Positions 4,733-16,426 of a stretch of DNA of 64,000 nucleotides are shown here, piece after piece. The notes under the pieces were generated by a model that had not been told where the DNA came from, did not search any database, and saw only the letters and a list, made by a program, of their open reading frames with translations. This DNA is from Acidobacteriota bacterium (GTDB lineage: Bacteria > Acidobacteriota > Thermoanaerobaculia > Gp7-AA8), in assembly GCA_019244185.1 (NCBI GenBank), contig JAFATB010000019.1:248001-312000 (forward strand), written 5' to 3'. A program made the position numbers and the translations under genes. Numbering within the stretch: position 1 is the stretch's first letter; each line of letters begins with the position of its first letter.

Positions 4733-5965
4733 ATGGTCCTCTTCAACTACGCCACTAAAGAGATCACGGCCAAGATCGTCTATTACGGCCCCGGTCTCTG
4801 CGGCAAGACGACGAACCTGCAGTTCGTGTACGACTCGCTGCCGTCGAACAACAAGAGCAAGATGCTCTCGCTGGCGACGAAGACGGACCGCACGCTCTTC
4901 TTCGACTTCCTCCCTCTCGACCTCGGCAAGATCCGCGGCATGCGCACCAAGCTTCAGCTCTACACGGTGCCCGGCCAGGTCTACTACAACTCGACGCGCC
5001 AGCTCGTGCTCAAGGGCGCGGACGGAATCGTATTCGTCGCCGACAGCCAGGATTTTGCGCTCGATGCAAACCTCGAATCGATGCAGAACCTCGAGGACAA
5101 CCTCAAGCGCCAGGGCGTGCGCCTCCGCGAGATGCCGCTCGTCGTGCAGTACAACAAACGCGATCTCCCGAACGCGCTGCCGGTCGCCGAGATCGAGCGC
5201 GAGCTGAACAAGCAGAAGGTGCCGTCGTTCGAGTCGGTGGCGACGTCGGGACTCGGCGTCGAGGAAACGCTCAAAGGCATCACGCAGCTCGTGCTCGCCC
5301 ACCTCGTGAAAAAGTACGGACTCGAAGGCGCCGAGCCGCTCGAGCGCGAGATCCAGATCCTCAACGCACCCACCGCCGCACCCGCAACGTCGGAGTCGCT
5401 GTGGGACGACGACGACGAGCCGTTCGGCGCGCCCGCGACGCCGCCGCCCGCCCCGCGCGCACCCGCGGTATCCGCTGCATCCACCGCACCGGCTGCTGCC
5501 TCGCGACCTGCACCGCCGCCACCACCACCGCCCGCGCCGACGCTCTCGCCGTTCGCTCCCGTGAACGAGCCGGAGTTCGATCTCGACGACGCCGATCACG
5601 CGGCGAACGAGCACATCCCGCTCGTGGCCACGGAGCTCGTCGGCGGCGGCAGCGCGCTTCCCGAGCTTCCGCCGCTCGAGCCGTTCGGCCGCGACGCCGT
5701 CTCGGATTACTTCAACGCGGATCCGGTCGAGGTGCCGACGACGTCCATCGAGATCCCGCTGCCGCAGGGTCTTCTCGACTCGCTGCCGATCCTCGGCGAG
5801 CAACCCGCCGCGACGACCGTCGCCGCGCGTCCGCCGCAGGAACGCCGCGCGAACGACGGCCTCGTGAAGGAAGTAAGCATCCCGCTCAACCTGACGATGG
5901 ACGAGATCCGCCAGCATCGCCGCCTGCGCCTCAAGATCACGCTCGACGTGAATCTTTTGCCGTAG
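4733..5965 (+). CDS. mglA: MglA-type small GTPase with long Pro/Ala-rich C-terminal tail
   Basis: 410 residues. The GTPase domain occupies about residues 1-195: P-loop GPGLCGKTT at 19-27, switch/G3 region LYTVPGQVYYN where MglA-type proteins have TxPGQ, and G4 NKRD near residue 142. Canonical MglA is about 195 residues and controls cell polarity or gliding together with a roadblock-domain GAP (MglB). Here a tail of roughly 215 residues follows: acidic and Pro/Ala-rich, then a conserved-looking end (MDEIRQHRRLRLKITLDVN). No MglB homologue is adjacent. The start is the ATG at 4733, the first in frame; the preceding 70 bases separate it from a divergent gene. The role in polarity is inferred from the family. 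Confidence 0.85.
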   Translation: MVLFNYATKEITAKIVYYGPGLCGKTTNLQFVYDSLPSNNKSKMLSLATKTDRTLFFDFLPLDLGKIRGMRTKLQLYTVPGQVYYNSTRQLVLKGADGIVFVADSQDFALDANLESMQNLEDNLKRQGVRLREMPLVVQYNKRDLPNALPVAEIERELNKQKVPSFESVATSGLGVEETLKGITQLVLAHLVKKYGLEGAEPLEREIQILNAPTAAPATSESLWDDDDEPFGAPATPPPAPRAPAVSAASTAPAAASRPAPPPPPPPAPTLSPFAPVNEPEFDLDDADHAANEHIPLVATELVGGGSALPELPPLEPFGRDAVSDYFNADPVEVPTTSIEIPLPQGLLDSLPILGEQPAATTVAARPPQERRANDGLVKEVSIPLNLTMDEIRQHRRLRLKITLDVNLLP

Positions 5966-6947
5966 CCTGTTGTTCGTCTGCGATCACGGAGGAGTGGTCG
6001 AGTGGTTTAAGGCAGCGGTCTTGAAAACCGCCGTACGGGCAACCGTACCGTGGGTTCGAATCCCACCTCCTCCGCCAATCGCCGGTTTCCGCTGCTTGCT
6101 TGATGAGGTGGAAGGGCGAACGCATTCCAAAGTCGAGACTTCCGTCTCGCACGGTGCAGTTCGAAACGAGCAGTCGCAGCAACTTCGCTCGCTCGGGTGG
6201 TGATTGCGTAAGGTACTCATCACGTGCGGCTTGCAGGAGTTCGAACTGCTCGCGAGCTCGGTCAACCAACTCGTCCGTCGTCACGCACGGCACTTCGATG
6301 GCGAGCTGCGATCGTAGCCTCCGTTCTTCCTTCCGCCAGGCGTCGGAGCGCTCGCGCCAGAAACTCTCTGTGATGCGGCCGGTGAGCTTGTCCTCGTACG
6401 CCTGCGCCTGCAGACATGAAAGCTCCGTCAGGCGCGCCTGGGCGCGCGTGGCGCTTGCTGCTGCGGCGCTCCTCGTCTCGTCGTAGGAGGCCGCGAGGTC
6501 ATCGAGGAGCCAACTGCTCACCGCCTCGTCTACGGTGAGCGTCGTGAGGAGCGCGATGGTTTGCTCCTCGAAGGTGCGCTCCGGGTAGTACGTGCGCCGC
6601 TCGCACCCGGTGCAGAAGTAGTACGTGTACTTCCCCTTCTTCAGATCACCGCTGAGAAGACCGTTGCACGCGGCGCAGCGCAGGAGTCCGGCGAAGGTGA
6701 ACTCGTGCGCTCGCGTCTTGGGCTTGCTCCTGAAGCCGAGCGCGTACTGGACTTGGTCGAAGAGGTCGCGCGTGATGAGCGGCTCGTACTTACCCAGGTA
6801 CGTCGTGCCACCCCACGTGAACTCGCCCACGTACGCGGTGTGCTGGAGGATGCGCGCAAGCGCGCTCTTTTGGATGGGCGCGCCGTAGCGTCCGCGCAGG
6901 CCAAGGTCACGACCGATCTTCGCGTGCCATCGCGCAAGGTTGACCAC
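5937..6947 (-). pseudogene. Remnant of a large serine recombinase lacking its catalytic domain
   Basis: An open frame of 336 codons from a GTG at 6947; an in-frame stop lies four codons upstream (6957-6959). It begins within the recombinase domain (KSALARILQHTAYVGEF) and continues with the zinc beta-ribbon (LLRCAACNGLL ... YYFCTGC) and a coiled coil (residues 155-245), all typical of large serine recombinases. The N-terminal resolvase domain with the nucleophilic Ser is absent, so this is not an active enzyme. The last 45 or so codons read antisense through tRNA-Ser and into the tail of the GTPase gene, so the original C-terminus probably ended near 6080. Its position against the tRNA suggests that this recombinase, or its ancestor, inserted the island here. 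Confidence 0.8.
5988..6077 (+). tRNA. tRNA-Ser (anticodon TGA)
   Basis: A 90-nt class II tRNA. Acceptor GGAGGAG (5988-5994) pairs with CTCCTCC (6067-6073), discriminator G, and CCA is encoded. The anticodon stem GCGGT/ACCGC encloses CTTGAAA, giving anticodon TGA. A long variable arm (GTACGG/CCGTAC) and T arm GTGGG-TTCGAAT-CCCAC are clear. It marks the left boundary of the accessory island. Confidence 0.97.
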
Positions 6948-7183
6948 AGGTGCACCTCAAGGTCAGTGGCCTTGCGGAACTGCTGTGGTGCCGCCTCGTG
7001 AAAGTACTCCTCGAACGTCTCGGGAAGTTCTGTCGCGTCCGCGAGTGCTTCATCCAGGAGGCGCGGATTGAGCGCGTAGAGCTCGCGACGTCGCAGGTGG
7101 CGACGAACGACTTCTGCCTGCTCGTGCCGGGTGGCGATGGCCGCTTTCAGGCGCTCCTGTTTGGTGAGGTGAAACCATGACAT
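6641..7183 (-). pseudogene. Possible broken ORF just upstream of the recombinase remnant
   Basis: From the ATG at 7183 about 80 codons look coding (MSWFHLTKQERLKAAIATRH, then many Arg/Glu/Leu residues with amphipathic pattern, ELPETFEEYFHEAAPQQF). Beyond about 6940 the same frame is only the shadow of the recombinase frame. The two frames meet near 6950. This could be a separate small gene truncated by a deletion, or an unrelated 5' part fused out of frame to the recombinase. I do not recognise the protein. Confidence 0.3.
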
Positions 7184-7288
7184 GACCTCACTATCGCGTG
7201 GGTGCAGGTATATATCCACCACCTGACACACTGGTTACATCCCTCGTCGGGTGCTTTATAAGAACCTGAAGCGTCCCAATCGTGATGA

Positions 7289-8338
7289 ATGATGGGACAC
7301 AAGCACCTGCTGCAATTTCTCGGCATTCTCTACGACTCGCCCAAGGCGATGGGTATCGAGGAGTTTGCACGAACAAATCGGAGGTTCACGGCACGCTCCC
7401 TCTACCGCTGGCAAGCAGAGCTCAGCGACGATCTGCTCTTCTTCCCAAGCGTCGCGTTCCACTCTCTTGGGCTTTCGACCGTTCATCTCTTCATTGATGA
7501 TCCAGGTTCGGCGTGGCTGGAGTTTCCGTATGCGATCCGAGGCGAGTGGGTCGTCTCGCGGCCCGGCCAGCGCACGCTCTACCTGCACTGCCTCGTTCCC
7601 TGCGGCCACGAGCTGGAACTCGCTGGCGTCCTGCGCGACGCAGAAGGCATCACGGCAGCGAAGATCACCAGCATCGAGTCACGTGATGGCTGGCAGGTGC
7701 TGCGCGACTTCGGAAGCAATCCGCTCAGCCGCGCTCCAGCGGTCACTCGTGATCAGCACGTGTGGGACGTCGTAGAACGTCTCCCGCTCCTCATCGCCGT
7801 CATCTTCGAAAGTGTAGAGCACGGCCAGAGTCTGCCGGCGATCTGGGAATCGATCTACCAGCGTCTCGGCAAGCGAACGTGGGAGTACCTGCCACGCTTC
7901 GCCCGTCGGCTTCCGACGAACGGCAAGGCCTACGTGAAGGAATGCTTTGCACTGCTCAACCACACCGGCCTCTTTCGGCAGAACATCATCCGGTATCGGC
8001 CGCTCAACGCCATCGGCACACCCATGTTCCTCCAAGTCGAGGGCGAGTTAAGCGCAATCATCAACGCCTTCGCGCAGCACGCGCCGAGCATCGACGTCTT
8101 CCCCATCACAAATGACTCCGCTCTCCTGCGCGTGGTGAGTACTCACGCACTCACGCAGCACGTCTTCAGCACGCTCCCGAATCTTCCGCGCATCAGCACA
8201 TGGCACTTCGTCGACACTCCACGCAACGAGTGTGAGCCAGTACGGCCGCGATTCGCCTACGAACTACTCTTCGATCCAGCAACCACCGAATGGGTCTTCC
8301 CTACCGAGATGCTCAAGAAGTTCCGAGGTGGACCATGA
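7289..8338 (+). CDS. Unknown 349-residue protein, first gene of the HerA-nuclease operon
   Basis: I do not recognise a family. The first 45 residues look like a winged-helix or HTH segment (LLQFLGILYDSP ... IEEFARTNRRFTARSLYRW). The rest alternates beta strands and helices, with DQHVWDVVERLPLLIAVIF and a second alpha/beta part; the layout resembles two-domain transcriptional regulators but this is a loose impression. It begins with two consecutive ATG codons. Its stop overlaps the start of the next gene (ATGA), so it is translated together with the coiled-coil protein and, one base further on, the HerA-type ATPase. Codon use is more mixed than in flanking chromosomal genes. Likely partner or regulator of the ATPase (inference). 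Confidence 0.7.
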   Translation: MMGHKHLLQFLGILYDSPKAMGIEEFARTNRRFTARSLYRWQAELSDDLLFFPSVAFHSLGLSTVHLFIDDPGSAWLEFPYAIRGEWVVSRPGQRTLYLHCLVPCGHELELAGVLRDAEGITAAKITSIESRDGWQVLRDFGSNPLSRAPAVTRDQHVWDVVERLPLLIAVIFESVEHGQSLPAIWESIYQRLGKRTWEYLPRFARRLPTNGKAYVKECFALLNHTGLFRQNIIRYRPLNAIGTPMFLQVEGELSAIINAFAQHAPSIDVFPITNDSALLRVVSTHALTQHVFSTLPNLPRISTWHFVDTPRNECEPVRPRFAYELLFDPATTEWVFPTEMLKKFRGGP

Positions 8339-8736
8339 CGGAGAAAAAAGAGTTGGGTGCGCAGGCGATGACGGCCGCGCTGCACGGCGAGAAGACGGCC
8401 GTGCTTGAACTACAACACGCGATGATCGGCGAAGAAATCAAGACGCGCGAAGCGATCAAGACGCGCAACCTCGAAAGCATCCATGCAGACGAGGCAACGC
8501 TGCGCGAGGAACTGCAGCAAGTTACGCCCGCGCATGAAGGCGCAGCCGACGATCCGAATGCACGCAAGGAGCGACACCTCCTCGAGCGCCAGGAGACCGA
8601 ACTCCATCGTGAGGAGCGCGCGGAAGAACGCGCCGCATGGACCGATGAGCAACCGCTCACGCGAGAAGACCGCGAGATCCACAAGACCACACTCGAACAG
8701 GAGCAGCGACGCAAGCGCATCGATGAGCTGATGTGA
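8335..8736 (+). CDS. Small charged coiled-coil protein, middle gene of the HerA-nuclease operon
   Basis: 133 residues, start at the ATG that overlaps the preceding stop by four bases; an ORF opening at 8290 would overlap far more. Almost the whole chain is Glu/Arg/Lys-rich heptad-like helix (ELQHAMIGEEIKTREAIKTR; LLERQETELHREERAEERA; TTLEQEQRRKRIDELM). No catalytic motif. Such proteins usually act as adaptors or oligomerisation subunits. It ends one base before the TTG start of the ATPase. Function unknown; association with the ATPase is inferred from coupling. Confidence 0.7.
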   Translation: MTEKKELGAQAMTAALHGEKTAVLELQHAMIGEEIKTREAIKTRNLESIHADEATLREELQQVTPAHEGAADDPNARKERHLLERQETELHREERAEERAAWTDEQPLTREDREIHKTTLEQEQRRKRIDELM

Positions 8737-8737
8737 C

Positions 8738-10669
8738 TTGCTACCCGACCTTTTCCGCAAGCTCAAGCCGTTGTACGGAACAGCGATCGATCTCTTGTGG
8801 ATCGAGTATCAAACCGCCGATGTTGAACGAAAGCGCGAGATCGAGGAGTACCTCACACTCCTCGGCGTCAAGAAGCTCGGCCTCGCGGTTGGTGATGAGA
8901 AGCTTGTCCTCGACGCACCGCCGGCAGCGCTCATCGGTGAAGGCGACTTCACGATCGGGATGGTGAGCTACCCGAGCATCCCACCGTATCCGTTCCGTGT
9001 TAAGCGCAACGAGCTGCTCAGGCACATCTTCATCCTCGGGCCAACAGGAACAGGCAAGAGCACGCTGCTCCTCAACATTCTCGTGCAGATTCAAGCTGCA
9101 CGGATTCCGTTCATGGTCTTCGACTTCAAGCGCAACTATCGCTGCCTCTTGCGTGCTTCAGGCAACGAATCGCTGATTGTGTTCACTGTTGGACGCAATA
9201 CCGCATCGCTGTCGATCAACGCGCTCACACCGCCGCCCGGCGTGGAGTTCGAAGAATGGGCCGAAGCACTCAGCGACATCATCAGCACCAGCTACCTCCT
9301 CCTGCAGGGAGCACGCAACGTGATGAAGGAAGCGTTACTCCAAGCGCATGCGCAACACGGCAACACAGCGACACTGTTGCACGCGCACGCGTTGCTCGCG
9401 CACGAGTTAGACGCAACGAAGAGCGGCAGCCGACGCTACGGGTGGCTGGAGTCGTCCACGCGCAGCTTGGAGGAGCTGACGAAGGGCAGCTTCGGTCGCG
9501 CGTTAAACGCAACGAACGGCACGCCAGTCGCTGACATGCTCACACGTTCTGTCGTGTTCGAGCTACAGGGATTCGGTGATGACCAGAAGCGATTCTTCTG
9601 CCTCCTCTGGCTGGAAATTATCCTGCTCCTGCGCAAGAGCAGCAGCGCGCCCCGCGAGCAACTCCAGCACGCGCTCATCTTCGATGAAGGCCACAACGTG
9701 TTCCCGCGCGAGCGACCTGGCGAAGTGAGCGTCCCGGCGCGGCTCGCGCGTGAGGTGCGCGAGTTCGGCGAAGCAATCATCGCGGCAACGCAGCAGGCCG
9801 ACGTGAGCGAGAGCCTGATCGCGAACAGCGGATTCAAACTCATCCTGCGCTGCGACTACCCGAAGGATGTGACGTTCGCGAGTCAGCTCCTCCAGATCGA
9901 TGCGCGCTGGCTGCCGAAGCTCCCCATCGGCACGGGCATCGCGAGACTTCCCGTCCGGTTCTATTCGCCCATCCTCTTCACCTTTGGCGTGCAACCAATC
10001 AAGAACCTCGCAATTTCTGACGAGGAAGTGCACGCGCAGTGGTTGCGCACACACCTACCCATACCAAACTCCGACGTTACGTCAGCCATCGGGCAGTTGG
10101 GCGACCGCGAGGAGGCGCTCCTGCGCGACGTGGCGCTAACGCCGATCAGTCCGATCACGCATCGCTACCAACGCCTCGGCTGGCACATGGAGGTCGGCAA
10201 CCGCACGAAAGACGCGATCATCAAGCGCGGTCTCGCGCGCTTCGATGCAATCAGCACACCCCGCGGTCAGGTGAAGATCCTTACGCTCACGCCCGACGGC
10301 ACTGCGCTGCTTGCGTCACGCGGCATGACGCTGAAGCAGACACGCGGCGGCGGTGCCGAGCATGAGTTCTGGAAGCATGAACTGCGTACCATCCTCGAAC
10401 GCGCCGACTGGCTGGTCGCAGAGGAGTTTGCGCTCGGCGGTGGCAAGAGTGCTGACCTGCGCGCTGATCGCGGTGATCGTGCGCTCTTCGTCGAAGTCGA
10501 AACGGGACGGTCGGACATCGCTGCGAACGTCGCGAAGTACCCAAGCGACGTTGACCTCGTGATGTTCTTCACGAGCGCCGAGGTCGCGCAGCGCTACCGC
10601 GACCTCGTGCTGCTCGATCGGCCTGGTACGCGCTGCCTGACGCCGGCCGACCTGCACCAACTCACGTAG
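8738..10669 (+). CDS. HerA/VirB4-type DNA-translocating ATPase fused to winged helix and PD-(D/E)XK-like nuclease domain
   Basis: 643 residues from a TTG start one base after the preceding stop. Residues about 60-430 form a HerA/FtsK-superfamily ATPase: Walker A GPTGTGKST at 101-109, FMVFDFKRNYR shortly after, Walker B LIFDEGHN with D316/E317, and the sensor segment IIAATQQADVSESLIANSGF. Residues about 440-530 look like a winged helix (GDREEALLRDVAL ... LTLTPDGTALLASRG). Residues about 540-630 have a nuclease-like pattern: HEFWKHELRTILERA helix, D573, then E586-x-E588 in LFVEVETG, matching D-(X)n-E-X-E/K enzymes with Glu in place of Lys. Known relatives pump or process DNA with NurA-type nucleases; here both functions appear in one chain. 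Role may be defence, conjugation or element maintenance (inference). Confidence 0.82.
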   Translation: MLPDLFRKLKPLYGTAIDLLWIEYQTADVERKREIEEYLTLLGVKKLGLAVGDEKLVLDAPPAALIGEGDFTIGMVSYPSIPPYPFRVKRNELLRHIFILGPTGTGKSTLLLNILVQIQAARIPFMVFDFKRNYRCLLRASGNESLIVFTVGRNTASLSINALTPPPGVEFEEWAEALSDIISTSYLLLQGARNVMKEALLQAHAQHGNTATLLHAHALLAHELDATKSGSRRYGWLESSTRSLEELTKGSFGRALNATNGTPVADMLTRSVVFELQGFGDDQKRFFCLLWLEIILLLRKSSSAPREQLQHALIFDEGHNVFPRERPGEVSVPARLAREVREFGEAIIAATQQADVSESLIANSGFKLILRCDYPKDVTFASQLLQIDARWLPKLPIGTGIARLPVRFYSPILFTFGVQPIKNLAISDEEVHAQWLRTHLPIPNSDVTSAIGQLGDREEALLRDVALTPISPITHRYQRLGWHMEVGNRTKDAIIKRGLARFDAISTPRGQVKILTLTPDGTALLASRGMTLKQTRGGGAEHEFWKHELRTILERADWLVAEEFALGGGKSADLRADRGDRALFVEVETGRSDIAANVAKYPSDVDLVMFFTSAEVAQRYRDLVLLDRPGTRCLTPADLHQLT

Positions 10670-10781
10670 GTGTTTCTTCGCCGACACGCCGCGAGGAGCT
10701 CGATTCTCGCGAGCAGGAGGTGTTTCACATCTCCGATAACGTCCGATGCAAGAAAGAGTGTGAAACCGCTCGCCGCTTGTG

Positions 10782-10827
10782 AAAACCATTACGAGAAGCC
10801 GCTGCATGCAAGGTACGAACAAGCGTG
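10782..10827 (+). repeat. 46-nt upstream repeat, copy 1 (candidate operator/promoter)
   Basis: Aligns without gaps to 11254-11299: the first 20 nt and the block of 15 nt near the end are identical, with 7 variable nt between. It contains two similar half-sites, TACGAGAAG at 10790 and TACGAACAAG at 10814, 24 bp apart. It lies directly at the start of the first S24-fold gene. Likely a shared binding site for an island regulator; a promoter is possible. Confidence 0.6.
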
Positions 10828-11241
10828 CCACGACGAAGCACAGGCGCACGCTCCACCCGACGCACGGCGTCTGGATCAACGATCGTTCAAGCGATCCGCA
10901 TTCTTTCCCAAGGCAAGCCGCTGATCGAGGCCGACGAGTGTGCCATCGTTCCCGCTGACAAGATCGGCCCTGGAGAACTCGTGTTTCGTGTCGCCGGCGA
11001 CATGCCAGACGTCGGACTGGCTGATCGCGACCACCTCATCGTGGAGCCGCGCACCAATGGTGACGCCGCAACCGGCGAGTTCGTCATCGCCACGCTAGGC
11101 AATGACGCGTTCGTCGGCCGGTACTGGAGGAAGCACGGTACACGCTCACTGCTCGACGGCGCGTTCCACGTCATCGCCCAAGGCTCGGCCCTACGGGTGC
11201 TCGGCGCGGTGACGCTCGTGCTCCGCGACGAAACCCACTGA
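10825..11241 (+). CDS. S24/LexA-fold protein lacking both catalytic residues
   Basis: 138 residues from a GTG inside the upstream repeat; the true start may be a little later because no good ribosome site is visible. Residues about 35-135 follow the S24 peptidase (LexA/UmuD) pattern: LVFRVAGDMPDVGLADRDHL where LexA has SGMSMKDIG, and GEFVIATLGNDAFVGRYWRK where LexA has VTVKRL. The nucleophilic Ser position is missing and the Lys is replaced by Gly, so self-cleavage is not expected. There is no HTH domain. It is a stand-alone S24 fold, possibly a dimerisation or inhibitor partner of the longer S24 protein that follows. Confidence 0.68.
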   Translation: MPRRSTGARSTRRTASGSTIVQAIRILSQGKPLIEADECAIVPADKIGPGELVFRVAGDMPDVGLADRDHLIVEPRTNGDAATGEFVIATLGNDAFVGRYWRKHGTRSLLDGAFHVIAQGSALRVLGAVTLVLRDETH

Positions 11242-11253
11242 AAACACGCGCCA

Positions 11254-11299
11254 AAAACCATTACGAGAAGCCGGCTCGATCAAGGTACGAACAAGTGTC
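11254..11299 (+). repeat. 46-nt upstream repeat, copy 2 (candidate operator/promoter)
   Basis: Second copy of the element at 10782-10827, same length, both TACGA-type half-sites conserved at the same 24-bp spacing. It ends about 100 nt before the ATG of the two-domain S24 protein. Presence in front of both S24-fold genes and nowhere else I could find suggests co-regulation. Confidence 0.6.
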
Positions 11300-11398
11300 T
11301 TGAGAGAACCGGTCGACACGCCGTCCTCCTCAGCGCGATTCGCGAAGCATCGACCTTCCTTCTCCCGAGCGCAAACACCCTGCGGAAAGGAATTAGCG

Positions 11399-12403
11399 AT
11401 GGATGATTGCGAATACCTCGGCACGCTCGAACGCGATCCTGATGGGACGGTGCGCATCCGCCGACCGCACATCCCACAAGCACCAGCACGCACGAAACGA
11501 CCAATCCAAGTCCCCTTCAGTGTGGAGCGGCAGATCGCACGCGGCAACGTGTACGCGACCACCGTCATCGGGGACAGCATGCAACCCACCATCCTCGACA
11601 ACGACGTCGTCATCGTCTCCACGAGCCGATCGCCGCGGCAACGGGACATCGTCGTCATCAGGGCCAACGGGCCGCACCCGGTGTACGGCCCCATCGACGG
11701 GTACGTGTGGCGGTACCACGCGCGTGCCGGTGAGACGTACTTAGGCAAGGACAACCCGCGCTACCGCGATCGTCAACCCGTGATGCGCGAGGAGATCGTC
11801 GGTGTCGTCACGCGCATCCTTCCCCGTGCCTACCGCGACGAGCAGGAAAACTACCTGCGCATTCAGCAACACCGCGCGCTCTCACGAGCATGCAACATAA
11901 CCGACCCACGGGACCTCGGGTTCTACCGGGAACGCGATCTACGCGAGCTCCGCGCGATCTTTCAGATCCCCGCAGATGAACTTGTCGACGGGCGGCTTCC
12001 GTGGGGTCTCTTCCGCGCAACCGCGATCACCGATCATCCGCACGTCGGCATCACGACGCAGGAGGTACTGACCGTCGAGCCCACGATCGAGAGCTGTACC
12101 GGACAACTCGTCGTTAAACGCAACGAGGACGGAGAGACGATCCTCGGCGTGCTGCAGCGCGACGGCCTGCGCTCACGGCATCCTGGCGAGTTCTTCATCG
12201 AAACCGAAGAGCGGCGCATCAACGTGTCACGCAACGACGGCCACTATCCCCTCTACCGAGCCATCGCCGTCATCAAGCGCATCCAACGGCGCGGCGTCGT
12301 CATTCGCCTGCCGCAATGGACGGTCAGCGTAACGGCACAGTCGGCGACTCGCCCCCAGGCAGAGGAACGAGCACGCGTGCGCGGCACCGGAGGAAGACGA
12401 TGA
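11399..12403 (+). CDS. Protein with two tandem S24/LexA-like folds
   Basis: 334 residues. The ATG at 11399 is preferred because GGAAAGGA lies just upstream; an in-frame TTG at 11300 lacks this. Domain 1 (about 50-145) keeps the S24 nucleophile motif VIGDSMQPTILDNDVV with Ser60, and the fold continues through DIVVIRANG and GYVWRYHARAGETYLG, but Lys is replaced by Trp104 at the usual dyad site. Domain 2 (about 203-300) repeats the pattern (LFRATAITDHPHVGITTQEV; GQLVVKRNEDGETILGVLQ) without the Ser. No HTH is seen in the N-terminal 45 residues. The stop overlaps the next start (ATGA). Probable regulator of the element, perhaps acting with the HTH protein downstream (inference). Confidence 0.72.
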   Translation: MDDCEYLGTLERDPDGTVRIRRPHIPQAPARTKRPIQVPFSVERQIARGNVYATTVIGDSMQPTILDNDVVIVSTSRSPRQRDIVVIRANGPHPVYGPIDGYVWRYHARAGETYLGKDNPRYRDRQPVMREEIVGVVTRILPRAYRDEQENYLRIQQHRALSRACNITDPRDLGFYRERDLRELRAIFQIPADELVDGRLPWGLFRATAITDHPHVGITTQEVLTVEPTIESCTGQLVVKRNEDGETILGVLQRDGLRSRHPGEFFIETEERRINVSRNDGHYPLYRAIAVIKRIQRRGVVIRLPQWTVSVTAQSATRPQAEERARVRGTGGRR

Positions 12404-12867
12404 GCCACGAGTGCACGCGCCGCAGCCTGCTCCAACTCCTCGGCATCACGATCGGCGCCGCCGCCATCCCCGCACGCGCACGAACCCTAGACGTGGAACC
12501 AAGCCGCGATGAACCGATTGAGGCCGAGCAACCGTTGTCAAGTCCCACACGGTTGGAGCGATTCATCCGGTCACATGGCATCAAGCCCGCGCACCTTGCA
12601 CGCGAGTCGGGCTACTCACGACAACACCTCCTCCGCCTGCGCTTTGGTCGCATGCGCCCATCGCTGACCTGCATTGCTGCACTCGTCGTCGCGCTGCGAC
12701 GGCTCACGCAACGACACATCACCGCTAAAGACCTCTTCGAGCCCGGCGATATTCACCTGGCGTGGCGCGAGGTAAGCGGACAGCACGAGGAGCACGACCA
12801 CGAACAACTGCGGGCCGCATTTGGTCGACGAACGTTGCTCGCATTCCTCAACGGAGCACGATCATGA
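12400..12867 (+). CDS. XRE-type HTH protein with N-terminal Tat-like hydrophobic segment
   Basis: 155 residues, start taken at the ATG that overlaps the preceding stop. The N-terminus CTRRSLLQLLGITIGAAAIP has the twin-Arg plus hydrophobic layout of a Tat signal. Residues about 50-110 form a Cro/C1-type HTH (RLERFIRSHGIKPAHLARES, SRQHLLRLRFGRMRPSL). A DNA-binding domain behind an export-type leader is unexpected; either the segment is a false signal or a membrane anchor. It is coupled to both neighbours by ATGA overlaps, so it probably works with the S24 and ribbon-helix-helix proteins in control of the element. Confidence 0.7.
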   Translation: MSHECTRRSLLQLLGITIGAAAIPARARTLDVEPSRDEPIEAEQPLSSPTRLERFIRSHGIKPAHLARESGYSRQHLLRLRFGRMRPSLTCIAALVVALRRLTQRHITAKDLFEPGDIHLAWREVSGQHEEHDHEQLRAAFGRRTLLAFLNGARS

Positions 12868-12932
12868 GCCGCAAGCATTACGTGTCATTCAAGCGCGGAT
12901 GCGACCTCGGGAGACGACATGAGTCCCGTTGA
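12864..12932 (+). CDS. Very short ORF (22 codons) bridging two regulator genes
   Basis: ATG overlaps the preceding stop (ATGA) and the frame ends 14 nt inside the next gene. The peptide (MSRKHYVSFKRGCDLGRRHE...) is basic. It may only serve translational coupling across the gap, or be chance. No homologue comes to mind. Confidence 0.25.
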   Translation: MSRKHYVSFKRGCDLGRRHESR

Positions 12933-13383
12933 CGCACAGCACATTCGCGAGCTCTTCCTCCACAGGCAACCCTCCTACCGGTTGAGCGAAGCGGCTCGGC
13001 TCCTTAGCATGACGCGCGGTCGGCTAGAGCGCGAAGCACGCGCCGACCAGGAGGACGCGTATCGTGTGAACGGCCGCTGGCGCTTCACGTGGCGACAACT
13101 AGCGTATCTCGCGTTTCGCCGCTGGTCACTGAGCGACATCCACGAGGCGCTCGGCATTGATGCTACTGCAGTGCTGCCGCCACTCCTCGCGCTGCGCACG
13201 ATCTCCATTCGGCTGCCGGAGTACCTCGTGCAGGCCATCGAGCACTTCGCCGTTACCGACGACACCACCGTGGACAACTGGCTGCACCATGAGCTGGTCG
13301 ACTTTGCCGGCACGGTGGTCGATCGGATGGAGAATGTCATCCCTGGTTACCGGCGCGCATACCTCTTTCCGGGTCAGGAGTAA
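12919..13383 (+). CDS. Small DNA-binding protein: HTH plus ribbon-helix-helix-like C-terminus
   Basis: 154 residues. The first 75 residues look like a MerR/excisionase-type HTH (RLSEAARLLSMTRGRLEREA ... VNGRWRFTWRQLAYLAFRRW), in which a DNA-binding winged helix reads one site. Residues 95-135 look like a ribbon-helix-helix (TISIRLPEYLVQAIEHFAV). It is the last gene of the rightward island operon and is convergent with the membrane protein beginning at 15061, with only 16 bases between. An excisionase or copy-control role would suit an integrated element, but this is inference. Confidence 0.6.
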   Translation: MSPVDAQHIRELFLHRQPSYRLSEAARLLSMTRGRLEREARADQEDAYRVNGRWRFTWRQLAYLAFRRWSLSDIHEALGIDATAVLPPLLALRTISIRLPEYLVQAIEHFAVTDDTTVDNWLHHELVDFAGTVVDRMENVIPGYRRAYLFPGQE

Positions 13384-13399
13384 GTTGCGCGATTACGGA

Positions 13400-15061
13400 C
13401 TACGCGGCGGGCTGCTGATTGAACACAATCGCTTCGAAATCACGCAGCGGATCTTCGGCCCGGCCTCCTCGTATCGAATGCATCATGTGCGGAATCTTGT
13501 CGAAGGTGCCGTAGGCAGTTCGGAGTGCGGCCCGATACGCGGCATCTTGCTCCGCATCAAACGGATCGCCTCTGCGTAGCGCTTTCGCCAGCACCTCGGC
13601 GAAGACCGTCTGGTTCAATCGGCGCAGCCTGAAGTACGTGTCGAAGACGAGATGCGACATGCGTGACTTGTAGCTCTCGCTCAACTTGGACGAGGTCAGG
13701 ACATCTAGCAGAATGCGGGCGAGGCAGATGATGGCGCTCTTCGGAATGTTGTGGTTCTCGTACTCATCGTTGTTCTGGATGTTGAAGAGCTCCGCGTCGT
13801 CGGTGAGGCGCTCGACCGCCAGAATCCAATCTCGGCAACGGGACACCATCTCGTAGATGAAGTAGGTGTAACGTGTTTCGTAGAAGCTGTCTGACGGAGT
13901 GTGGCGATCACGCGGATCGTGGTTCTCGATCATGCGAGTCGTGAGCACCTCGTAGTAGAGGAGCCACATGTGATGGCGGATGCGTCCGAACAACGTCGCA
14001 GTCACCATCAGATCGAAAAACACTATCGCGGCGTAGAGCGGCGAGTCCCAACAGCCGTCCTCGCGAAAGTGATCGTCTGCGGTCAGGTTGTTCGGATCGG
14101 AGTCATGCTCCCGGCGCAGCGCCAAGAGTTCTTCGTTTGCGGCATCACCGACCGGCTTGTAGATGCTGAGTCGTTCCGAAACGTGCGGATCATTGAAGAA
14201 GTAACTGAGAAGCGGCTCCCCAGAGGAGAACTGCGCGGCACGTCCATGCCCGGCACCGGGGTTGTCACGAAGCTCGCGATGAAGAACGCTGCCGGAATCA
14301 GCTAACAGCGCCCGCATGTAGTGTTTCAGGAACTCGAACATGTCGCGGTTCGGAGTGGCGAGCAGTTTGAAGGCGAGGTACGGCCGTCCTTTCGCCACTG
14401 CCTCGACGAACTCCCGTGAGCGCTGAATTCGACTGAGGAGTTGTTCTGCGCCCTCCCGCCCCGTTGCGGTTTGCGGCAGATAGCGAACCAAGGGCGACGC
14501 GAGCTTTCTTGCGACCGCTCGTATGCGATGTGGTCGGCGGGCGGCCGCTACCGTGTCCGCGTTCAGTCGAAGAGGTGCAAGTTCTTCGAGGTACTCGGCA
14601 GGAGATGGAGCGATCCAGCGCCGCACTCGTTTCCGCCACGAGTCTGTCCCGGCGAGTCGGCTGAGCCGTTCAAGATGACGGTCGACGACGTGCGCTGCTT
14701 CCGCATAGTTTTGGTTCCAAAGCAACTCCTCCATGAGAGCGTAAAGGCGGGGAACTGCGCGGCGCGACAGCCGTGAGAAGCGAAGGTGCATGCCGACTAC
14801 GGAGACCGTCAGCAGCAGAAGGACGAACGAAGCCCGTTCAGGCGTGAGATTCCACCGGCTCAATCCGAGGCGGGGTGTCAAGCCGAACGCGGCGAAGAAC
14901 GAGTAGAACTGGAGGTAACCGATTCCGATGCCGCCCAAGATCAAGAGCAGCCAATCTGTCGGACGGAAGCGGACACCGAGGTCGAGCTGCCGCGCACGAG
15001 GCATCAGTTGGTACGCAGCGACTGCGAGACCGATGACAGCGACCAAGGTGTCGAGAGTCAT
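13400..15061 (-). CDS. Unknown membrane-anchored protein, 553 residues
   Basis: Three hydrophobic segments lie near the N-terminus (about residues 5-20, 33-58 and 78-100: LVAVIGLAVAAYQLM; WLLLILGGIGIGYLQFYSFF; ASFVLLLLTVSVVGMHL). The remaining 450 residues are predicted soluble and helical, with many Arg, Leu and aromatic residues and no recognised catalytic motif. I do not recognise the family. The organisation (short membrane anchor, large cytoplasmic helical part, accessory island) is common among cell-suicide effectors and among membrane sensors, but nothing here proves either. It is separated from the four-gene operon upstream by 320 bases, so it probably has its own promoter. Lower GC than the chromosome. 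Confidence 0.65.
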   Translation of the reverse strand: MTLDTLVAVIGLAVAAYQLMPRARQLDLGVRFRPTDWLLLILGGIGIGYLQFYSFFAAFGLTPRLGLSRWNLTPERASFVLLLLTVSVVGMHLRFSRLSRRAVPRLYALMEELLWNQNYAEAAHVVDRHLERLSRLAGTDSWRKRVRRWIAPSPAEYLEELAPLRLNADTVAAARRPHRIRAVARKLASPLVRYLPQTATGREGAEQLLSRIQRSREFVEAVAKGRPYLAFKLLATPNRDMFEFLKHYMRALLADSGSVLHRELRDNPGAGHGRAAQFSSGEPLLSYFFNDPHVSERLSIYKPVGDAANEELLALRREHDSDPNNLTADDHFREDGCWDSPLYAAIVFFDLMVTATLFGRIRHHMWLLYYEVLTTRMIENHDPRDRHTPSDSFYETRYTYFIYEMVSRCRDWILAVERLTDDAELFNIQNNDEYENHNIPKSAIICLARILLDVLTSSKLSESYKSRMSHLVFDTYFRLRRLNQTVFAEVLAKALRRGDPFDAEQDAAYRAALRTAYGTFDKIPHMMHSIRGGRAEDPLRDFEAIVFNQQPAA

Positions 15062-15382
15062 AAACCTTGGAATGTTCTAACAGTTGTGGCTGCTCGGACG
15101 TTCCCGCCGGGCTGCGTTAGGCCGCCGAGAGCTCGAAAGTCCCGACCCGGTGCGGTACTAGCCTGATTGGATAGCCGGCGCAAGTGGGGGCGCCACGAGG
15201 CTCGTCGTGCTCGTGGCAAGCTGATACGCTTCGCCAGCGTAGGAGCCGTGTGGTCCATCCTGGAGGAGTACGCGTACAGGCGTCCTGCAGCGCGATACGG
15301 GAGGAGCGACCCGTTCCTGAGTCGGATGGTGTATGCAGCAAGGCCGGAATTCGGATAATGCCATCGGGAATCAAAGCGATGC
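15062..15382. other. Intergenic stretch without a supported gene
   Basis: About 320 bases between the end of the Gfo/Idh/MocA gene and the start of the membrane protein gene. Short ORFs exist in several frames but none has convincing codon use, a ribosome site or a recognisable product. It should contain the terminator of the upstream operon and the promoter of the membrane protein; I could not pick out either with confidence. Confidence 0.5.
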
Positions 15383-16426
15383 CTATTCCGACGGCCCGCG
15401 CTTTTCACGCCCTGCTTTCGCTACCCCATCCTCGCAGTCCGCGGCAATCCGCTCCAATACTTCCAGCACTGGAAGGCTATTCTTAAGGGGCGACTCCGAC
15501 GGTGTGCCGTGTCGCACGCTGTGACAGAAACTATGAAAGGCGTTCGCATAGCCAGCAGCATCCATACCACCTCGAGCCACGGGCAGCGAATACTCCACAT
15601 GGGCCTTGCCGCCGATGGATTCATCACGAATGTTCGCAATGCCCTCGCCGACGAACCGGGCGTCCCGATGATCTTTGACAACACCCAGGATGCCGGCACC
15701 AGTTACAAATTCTGTGCTCGTCTCGAATTTGTTCCAGTAATTACCAAGATCAAGGTCCGCACGAGCGCCGCGACTGAAGTCCAGTCCGACCTGCAAGGCG
15801 AACCGCCCATTCGCAAACAGCGTAATTCCGCTGGTAACACAGCGTGGTGGGCCAAATAGATCCAATGCCATCTCCACAGGATGGACACCGACAGAATAAA
15901 GATAGCTTCTCACTAACGACATGTTCCACATGCTGCTGCGTGGCTTAGCTGTCAAGAATCGAAGCTTCGCATACTGGATCGGACCATATCTCTCCACAAT
16001 CGCCCGCGTCTGCCGATACACCGTGCCGAAGCGGAAGTTATAATCCACAAATATTGTGCACCGCGCTTCTGTCGCGGCCTCTATCGCGGCAAGTTCGCGC
16101 AATTGGCTCGGGTGCTCCGCTGGCGGCTTTTCTATGAATGCATGAAGTCCGCGAAGAAGCGCGTATCGAGCCACGGCAACGTGGAGATGCGGCGGACCTG
16201 CTACCACGATTGCATCAGCCGCGATCGAATCTAAACACGTTTCCCATGATCCAGCATAAGCACGCACGTTGTAACGTTGTTCGAGTCGTTGCGCCTTCTC
16301 TTCGGTTCTGCAACACATCGCCACCATCTGTACCCCGTCAGCCACTTGGAGCATCGGCAACAAGTTCTCTTGCATATGCTCGCCGAGTCCAAGGATGGCT
16401 ACACGAATTGGCGACACGTGGCTCAC
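15383..16426 (-). CDS. Gfo/Idh/MocA-family NAD(P)-dependent oxidoreductase
   Basis: 347 residues. The start is the GTG at 16426, which overlaps the preceding stop (GTGA); a longer frame from 16474 would run 50 bases into that gene. Rossmann motif VAILGLGEHMQENLLPML at the N-terminus, family signature AFIEKPPAEH near residue 105, and the C-terminal alpha/beta domain follow. Members oxidise or reduce hydroxyl or keto groups of sugars, inositols or related metabolites. Last gene of the four-gene leftward operon (MOSC, AurF-like, TIR-PAS-LuxR-PNP, this gene). Substrate unknown; the setting suggests tailoring of a specialised metabolite. Confidence 0.85.
   Translation of the reverse strand: MSHVSPIRVAILGLGEHMQENLLPMLQVADGVQMVAMCCRTEEKAQRLEQRYNVRAYAGSWETCLDSIAADAIVVAGPPHLHVAVARYALLRGLHAFIEKPPAEHPSQLRELAAIEAATEARCTIFVDYNFRFGTVYRQTRAIVERYGPIQYAKLRFLTAKPRSSMWNMSLVRSYLYSVGVHPVEMALDLFGPPRCVTSGITLFANGRFALQVGLDFSRGARADLDLGNYWNKFETSTEFVTGAGILGVVKDHRDARFVGEGIANIRDESIGGKAHVEYSLPVARGGMDAAGYANAFHSFCHSVRHGTPSESPLKNSLPVLEVLERIAADCEDGVAKAGREKRGPSE

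Follow-up and report, generated by a model that had tools for sequence, protein, structure and literature searches.

A repeated two-block element ahead of two S24-like genes as a candidate control site in an Acidobacteriota genomic island

Results and discussion

Within a 64,000-nt stretch of an Acidobacteriota bacterium genome (the window), a 46-nt sequence occurs twice in the same orientation, once ahead of each of two neighbouring S24-like genes, here called S24#1 and S24#2. Our leading explanation, to which we give about an even chance, is that the sequence works directionally as a bipartite DNA control site, either promoter-type or an operator that overlaps a promoter, with one site per S24-like gene. 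The sequence comparisons show its presence, conservation, spacing, orientation and position directly; we infer that it acts as DNA, starting or gating transcription, and that its ligand is encoded by the island, with a protein of the HTH_26 family as the first candidate. The initial annotation of this DNA had proposed shared control of the two genes through paired half-sites, and shared control is still the best reading, given one apparently selected bipartite element per S24-like gene with blocks identical in two loci. The half-site model is not; the element most likely provides ordinary on/off control in cis.

Copies and layout of the element

The two copies, E1 (10782-10827) and E2 (11254-11299), start 472 nt apart and share 35 of 46 bases, arranged as identical blocks of 20 and 15 with 7 variable nucleotides between them, which bears out the location and the two-block layout first assigned to the repeat, with exact coordinates. 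TACGAGAAG (at 10790 and 11262) and TACGAACAAG (at 10814 and 11286) are 24 apart in each copy. When up to three mismatches were allowed, the two-block pattern was found within the 64 kb at E1 and E2 only, and it was present in none of 100 dinucleotide shuffles. Outside the element, ten-base blocks compared at this offset of 472 nt agree at 0-6 of 10 positions; the likeness of E1 and E2 thus ends at the edges of the element, and the two copies do not mark the ends of a longer duplicated stretch. The features are collected in Table 1, where C6 is a second contig of the same genome.

Table 1 Coordinates of the element, its surroundings and the module genes in the window
Feature	Position	Strand	Observation
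HerA-like ATPase gene, upstream of E1, in duplicated module	8738..10669	+	Pfam DUF87 E 5e-7; 85% identical protein in C6
Upstream array: GGTGTTTC at 10669 and 10719, GATAA at 10735, GTGAAAC at 10760	10669..10766	+	Same order and spacing in C6
E1 block 1, AAAACCATTACGAG	10782..10795	+	14/14 against E2 and both C6 copies
E1 variable centre, 13 nt	10796..10808	+	5/13 against C6; equal length in 4/4 copies
E1 block 2, CAAGGTACGAACAAG	10809..10823	+	15/15 in 4/4 copies
S24#1, LexA/UmuD C-terminal-like, no HTH, 138 aa, GTG start	10825..11241	+	LexA profile E 2e-4
E2 block 1	11254..11267	+	14/14 in 4/4 copies
E2 variable centre, 13 nt	11268..11280	+	11/13 against C6 E2
E2 block 2	11281..11295	+	15/15 in 4/4 copies
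Leader from E2 to the ATG of S24#2	11296..11398	+	Noncoding by indels; 94/103 identical (91%) against C6
S24#2, S24-fold, 334 aa, no HTH	11399..12403	+	Pfam Peptidase_S24 E 3e-15 (longer ORF)
HTH_26 (Cro/C1-type) protein	12400..12867	+	Pfam HTH_26 E 4e-4, narrowly below the cut-off
Small putative DNA-binding protein	12919..13383	+	75% identical in C6

A paralogous locus elsewhere in the genome

Searching the genome's own assembly at up to three mismatches gave four sites: E1 and E2 in the window and another pair on C6, 466 nt apart. The C6 stretch (L005) is 81% identical to the window over 5.7 kb and has the same gene order, namely a 349-aa-type protein, a short charged protein, the HerA-like ATPase, S24#1, S24#2, the HTH_26 protein and the small putative DNA-binding protein. 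This module extends from about 6926 to 13383 in the window and is copied on C6 as a whole, both elements included. It is flanked in the window by a serine-recombinase remnant at a tRNA-Ser gene, and on C6 by a tyrosine recombinase, a DNA methylase, an E1/JAB (ThiF/JAB, E1-like) protein and a Schlafen AlbA_2 protein, an arrangement that suggests one module carried on two different islands of one genome. The serine recombinase (5937-6947), which lies at the tRNA-Ser gene at 5988-6077, covers no more than the C-terminal part of the integrase profile in its match and is probably a truncated remnant.

Read across both loci, the core of the element is best written as AAAACCATTACGAG, 13 variable nucleotides and CAAGGTACGAACAAG (14 + 13 + 15). 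The two conserved blocks of the first description are thereby kept, but not AAGCC to the right of block 1, which is missing from one copy, E1 of C6. All four copies have both blocks, the 13-nt spacing and the same orientation before an S24-like gene. Searched singly in the genome, block 2 gave four exact matches and two with two mismatches (five forward, one reverse; controls 1 and 2), and block 1 gave four exact matches and 32 that differ at two positions, together 22 forward and 14 reverse (controls 8 and 14); only the forward matches of block 1 are in excess. These half-element searches of the genome found no place with both blocks beyond the four copies.

Comparison of the two loci gives a footprint at E1, where the blocks are identical (29/29) while the centre (5/13) and the upstream spacer (59/112, about 53%) have diverged, and on these alignments the element looks selected. 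E2 agrees with its counterpart at 14/14, 11/13 and 15/15, and as its surroundings are about 91% identical throughout, the footprint evidence comes from E1 only. In simulations over 140 positions, a 14-base run of identity arose in 0.8% of cases at 53% identity, 4% at 60%, 24% at 70% and 73% at 80%, so that at 70-80% local identity such a run is unremarkable; how much weight the footprint bears therefore depends on how far the spacer has diverged.

These comparisons bear on two further explanations. We think it very unlikely that the element is a functionless by-product of duplication or gene conversion. Its confinement to one genome speaks for such an origin, but the likeness is limited to the element, the blocks are identical while the centres and the upstream flank diverge, and tracts of gene conversion would homogenise the centres. 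Gene duplication, which the initial annotation had named as the alternative that would undo its own reading, fails for the same reason, the similarity of E1 and E2 being confined to the element. A role as recombination sites, with the direct repeats framing an excisable or exchangeable 472-bp S24#1 cassette, is extremely unlikely. The repeats do bracket exactly one gene at both loci; against this, an inverted core is absent, E1 and E2 lack the common centre that a crossover would need, S24#1 sits between the elements at both loci, and the similarity of the loci runs on downstream of E2. Integron attC sites are direct repeats with conserved ends and a variable centre around a single gene. The element is laid out in the same way, as direct repeats with conserved ends and a variable centre around one gene, but differs in having no inverted-repeat ends, a centre of constant length and no evidence of mobility.

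Position relative to the start codons and a promoter-type reading

The description of the element as lying in front of both genes is correct, although the distances differ: the last bases of E1 are the GTG start codon of S24#1 (10825), whereas E2 ends about 100 nt ahead of the ATG of S24#2 (11399). An alternative TTG at 11300 is unlikely as a start because C6 has insertions of 4 nt and 1 nt between E2 and the ATG. Past GTG 10825, the differences between the loci include one in-frame 6-nt deletion, and five of ten substitutions fall at third positions, a pattern that is consistent with translation of S24#1 from this GTG. The ATG of S24#2 is preceded by GGAAAGG. The GTG of S24#1 has no clear Shine-Dalgarno sequence; its homologue in a related genome, G014, has GGGGAGG.

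Under the promoter-type reading, the two blocks, 13 nt apart, would be contacted together at a fixed helical spacing by RNA polymerase, a regulator or both, and S24#1 and S24#2 would be separate transcription units under the same control, each through its own element. Transcription of S24#1 would start at or beside the GTG to yield a leaderless mRNA, while the transcript of S24#2 would carry a leader of about 100 nt and its own ribosome-binding site. The asymmetry of the element, its fixed spacing and its uniform direction in all four copies make it more promoter-like than repressor-operator-like. A sigma-70 scan of 10500-11450 (-35/-10 hexamers at 16-18 nt) found no promoter-like site in that region, so the element may itself supply the promoter. 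A terminator scan gave two terminator-like sites, with 0.9 expected. Several findings speak against the leading explanation: the blocks match no known promoter consensus, a conserved -35 hexamer at 16-18 nt is lacking, block 2 is able to form an RNA hairpin at both copies, and the element has been seen in one genome only.

In leaderless bacterial genes, TA-like signals sit some 12 nt ahead of the start codon, and leaderless-type signals of this kind occur in three of three Acidobacteria genomes, as described in a survey of such genes (PMC3160421). As far as the TANNNT promoters described there can be compared, E1 is similar in that a TA-containing block begins 11 nt before the GTG, in a phylum with leaderless genes. 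It differs in that this sequence, TACGAA in block 2, ends in A instead of the final T of TANNNT, and in that a further conserved block of 14 nt is present. Of other known sites, the sigma-54, ECF and sigma-28 consensus sequences and the dif and attC sites were rejected on sequence.

A second conserved array lies upstream of E1 (Table 1), and its motifs recur at 8087, 8137, 8153 and 8178 on C6, where the spacer is about 53% identical to that of the window. The GGTGTTTC pair, at exactly 50 nt, is the only 8-mer pair common to both spacers, and the last motif of the array reads GYGAAAC across the two loci. The array may serve S24#1 as an additional operator or promoter. By inspection of the window sequence, no such array stands ahead of E2.

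An RNA reading of the element

The main alternative, which we consider unlikely, is that the element acts in the mRNA, with block 2 forming a hairpin (loop AACAAG/GAACAA) and block 1 serving as a single-stranded recognition tract. At E1 the GUG start codon would then lie within the stem, and translation of S24#1 would be gated. The 3' flanks of E1 and E2 differ in sequence and yet both pair with block 2, giving a stem of GGUACG/CGUGCC at E1 (MFE -8.8) and of UCAAGGUAC/GUGUCUUGA at E2 (MFE -9.1). Random 12-mer flanks from the island fold as well in 1.9% (E1) and 0.9% (E2) of 5000 draws each, and the upstream array could hold a promoter that places E1 inside a leader. Against these points, the hairpin test was chosen after the fold had been seen, and the independent flanks number only two, those of C6 being identical. 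Folding z-scores of the whole element (-0.8 to -1.75) are unremarkable. In an Rfam search of 5900-16000, the hits were confined to the tRNA and, below threshold, to two further matches in its region, with none for the element. The E2 hairpin is about 100 nt away from the start codon of S24#2, and a spacer constant in length (13 nt) but free in sequence fits a DNA site more naturally.

Half-sites, symmetry and the operator model

The initial annotation had proposed that one of the island's HTH proteins binds the element. As a classical operator, the element would be bound by an island-encoded repressor (the HTH_26 protein or the small protein at 12919-13383, the 12919 protein), with the promoter elsewhere, a model that we consider unlikely. 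In its favour, the regulator genes lie within the same module at both loci, and each locus has two sites with conserved blocks and a variable centre. A palindrome is absent, however: the best self-complementarity of E1 and E2 is about 50-55% over 11-16 positions. The TACGA repeated in both blocks is within chance, as a shared 5-mer occurs in 22% of shuffles and 14% of random island pairs, and the extended TACGARxAAG pair that was thought to mark the half-sites is not general, being broken in E1 of C6, which reads TACGAGCCG. With neither a palindrome nor a significant repeated half-site (TACGA, P 0.14-0.22), the dimer-of-dimers interpretation is weak; nor was a promoter found nearby.

Module proteins and candidate ligands

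Judged from its sequence, the HTH_26 protein is the better of two candidates for binding the element, since its HTH region is near-identical between the loci and different in G014, which has no element. C1-type HTH dimers usually bind palindromes, and the absence of one from the element counts against this protein as the ligand. It also has a twin-arginine-like hydrophobic start (TRRSLLQLLGITIGAA) and a similar motif at its end (GRRTLLAFLNGARS), which is unusual for a DNA-binding protein. The second candidate would be the 12919 protein, for which profile searches, including Pfam and PHROGs, gave no significant family match.

S24#1 scores below the cut-off against Pfam S24 (E 0.0086) and matches LexA from the PDB with E 5e-4 (3-row profile), the catalytic Ser falling opposite a gap and the Lys opposite Gly, so neither catalytic residue of an S24 autoprotease is present in the LexA alignments. 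S24#2 matches PHROGs repressor/UmuD-like families (E 3e-12 and 5e-11) and keeps GDSM; its PDB alignment ends before the lysine. Structure models were too poor to use, with a mean pLDDT of 34 for S24#2 and 54 for the 12919 protein.

Distribution beyond the genome

At up to three mismatches, the element is absent from the 195 other genomes among 196 relatives and from the 147 others among 148 class genomes, two sets that overlap. On the other half of the initial annotation's refuting condition, a lack of conservation in relatives, the element is conserved at the paralogous locus in its own genome and has no instance in any other genome examined. S24#2 itself has matches in two of 196 relatives (its own genome and G014, at 36-37%) and in two of 396 phylum genomes (its own and G428, the latter over 40-140 only). 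In G014 (L009) the HTH homologue, S24#1 and S24#2 form one tight operon in which the S24 frames overlap and the element is absent; the element could account for the two genes being controlled separately here. Divergent from that operon, at 6394-7762 of L009, are two tandem similar HTH-like genes of 206 and 208 aa.

HerA has matches in four of 396 genomes, including G026 of the window's class at 59%. It also has matches at two loci in a genome collection; in the closer of these, from Acidobacteria bacterium ACB1 (58%), the ORFs downstream of HerA, read by eye, look unrelated to the S24 pair. HerA is preceded by a 349-aa protein of no assigned family and a short charged one at 7289-8736 in the window and at 6503-7983 in L010, and with HerA they make up a conserved three-gene unit in the window, C6 and ACB1.

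Viral contigs had no match to the element pattern and no relatives of the module proteins (0 of 2 stretches for HerA, 0 of 55 for S24#2 and 0 of 33 for the 12919 protein). Plasmids had no match to the DNA of 10600-12400 or to S24#2, and only distant matches to HerA, in 25 records; phages had none to S24#2. In the literature, the listed matches to the TACGAACAAG string were unrelated by title, a search on LexA-binding motifs and Acidobacteria gave nothing on this element, and the combination of S24, XRE and operator gave no matches. As far as the viral-contig, literature and class-genome searches can tell, the motif is new.

Comparison with CI/LexA-type switches

The module resembles the CI/LexA-type repressor operons of phages and integrative elements in that a single mobile module encodes S24-fold and Cro/C1-type HTH proteins and carries repeated sites ahead of regulator genes. 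It is unlike them in dividing HTH and S24 between different polypeptides, in having an S24#1 without either catalytic position, and in the asymmetry of a site that would otherwise be palindromic. A more far-reaching proposal, which we regard as improbable and more so than the RNA or operator models, is that the element is a new asymmetric bipartite site of a split CI-type switch, with a per-gene response and, at S24#1, either leaderless initiation or a hairpin over the start codon. The HTH_26 protein would be the DNA-binding half and the S24-like proteins, at least one of them protease-dead, the other halves, all as separate proteins of the module. If the control-site reading is right, the element would be a defined cis site for an uncharacterised regulator module on two different islands of one genome, and the module a testable CI/LexA-like switch in which one protein binds DNA and others have the S24 fold; taken only as a control site, the element is ordinary. 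Downstream of the module, 13400-15061 encodes a protein of 553 aa that strongly matches phrog_13820, an uncharacterised phage family (E 2e-36).
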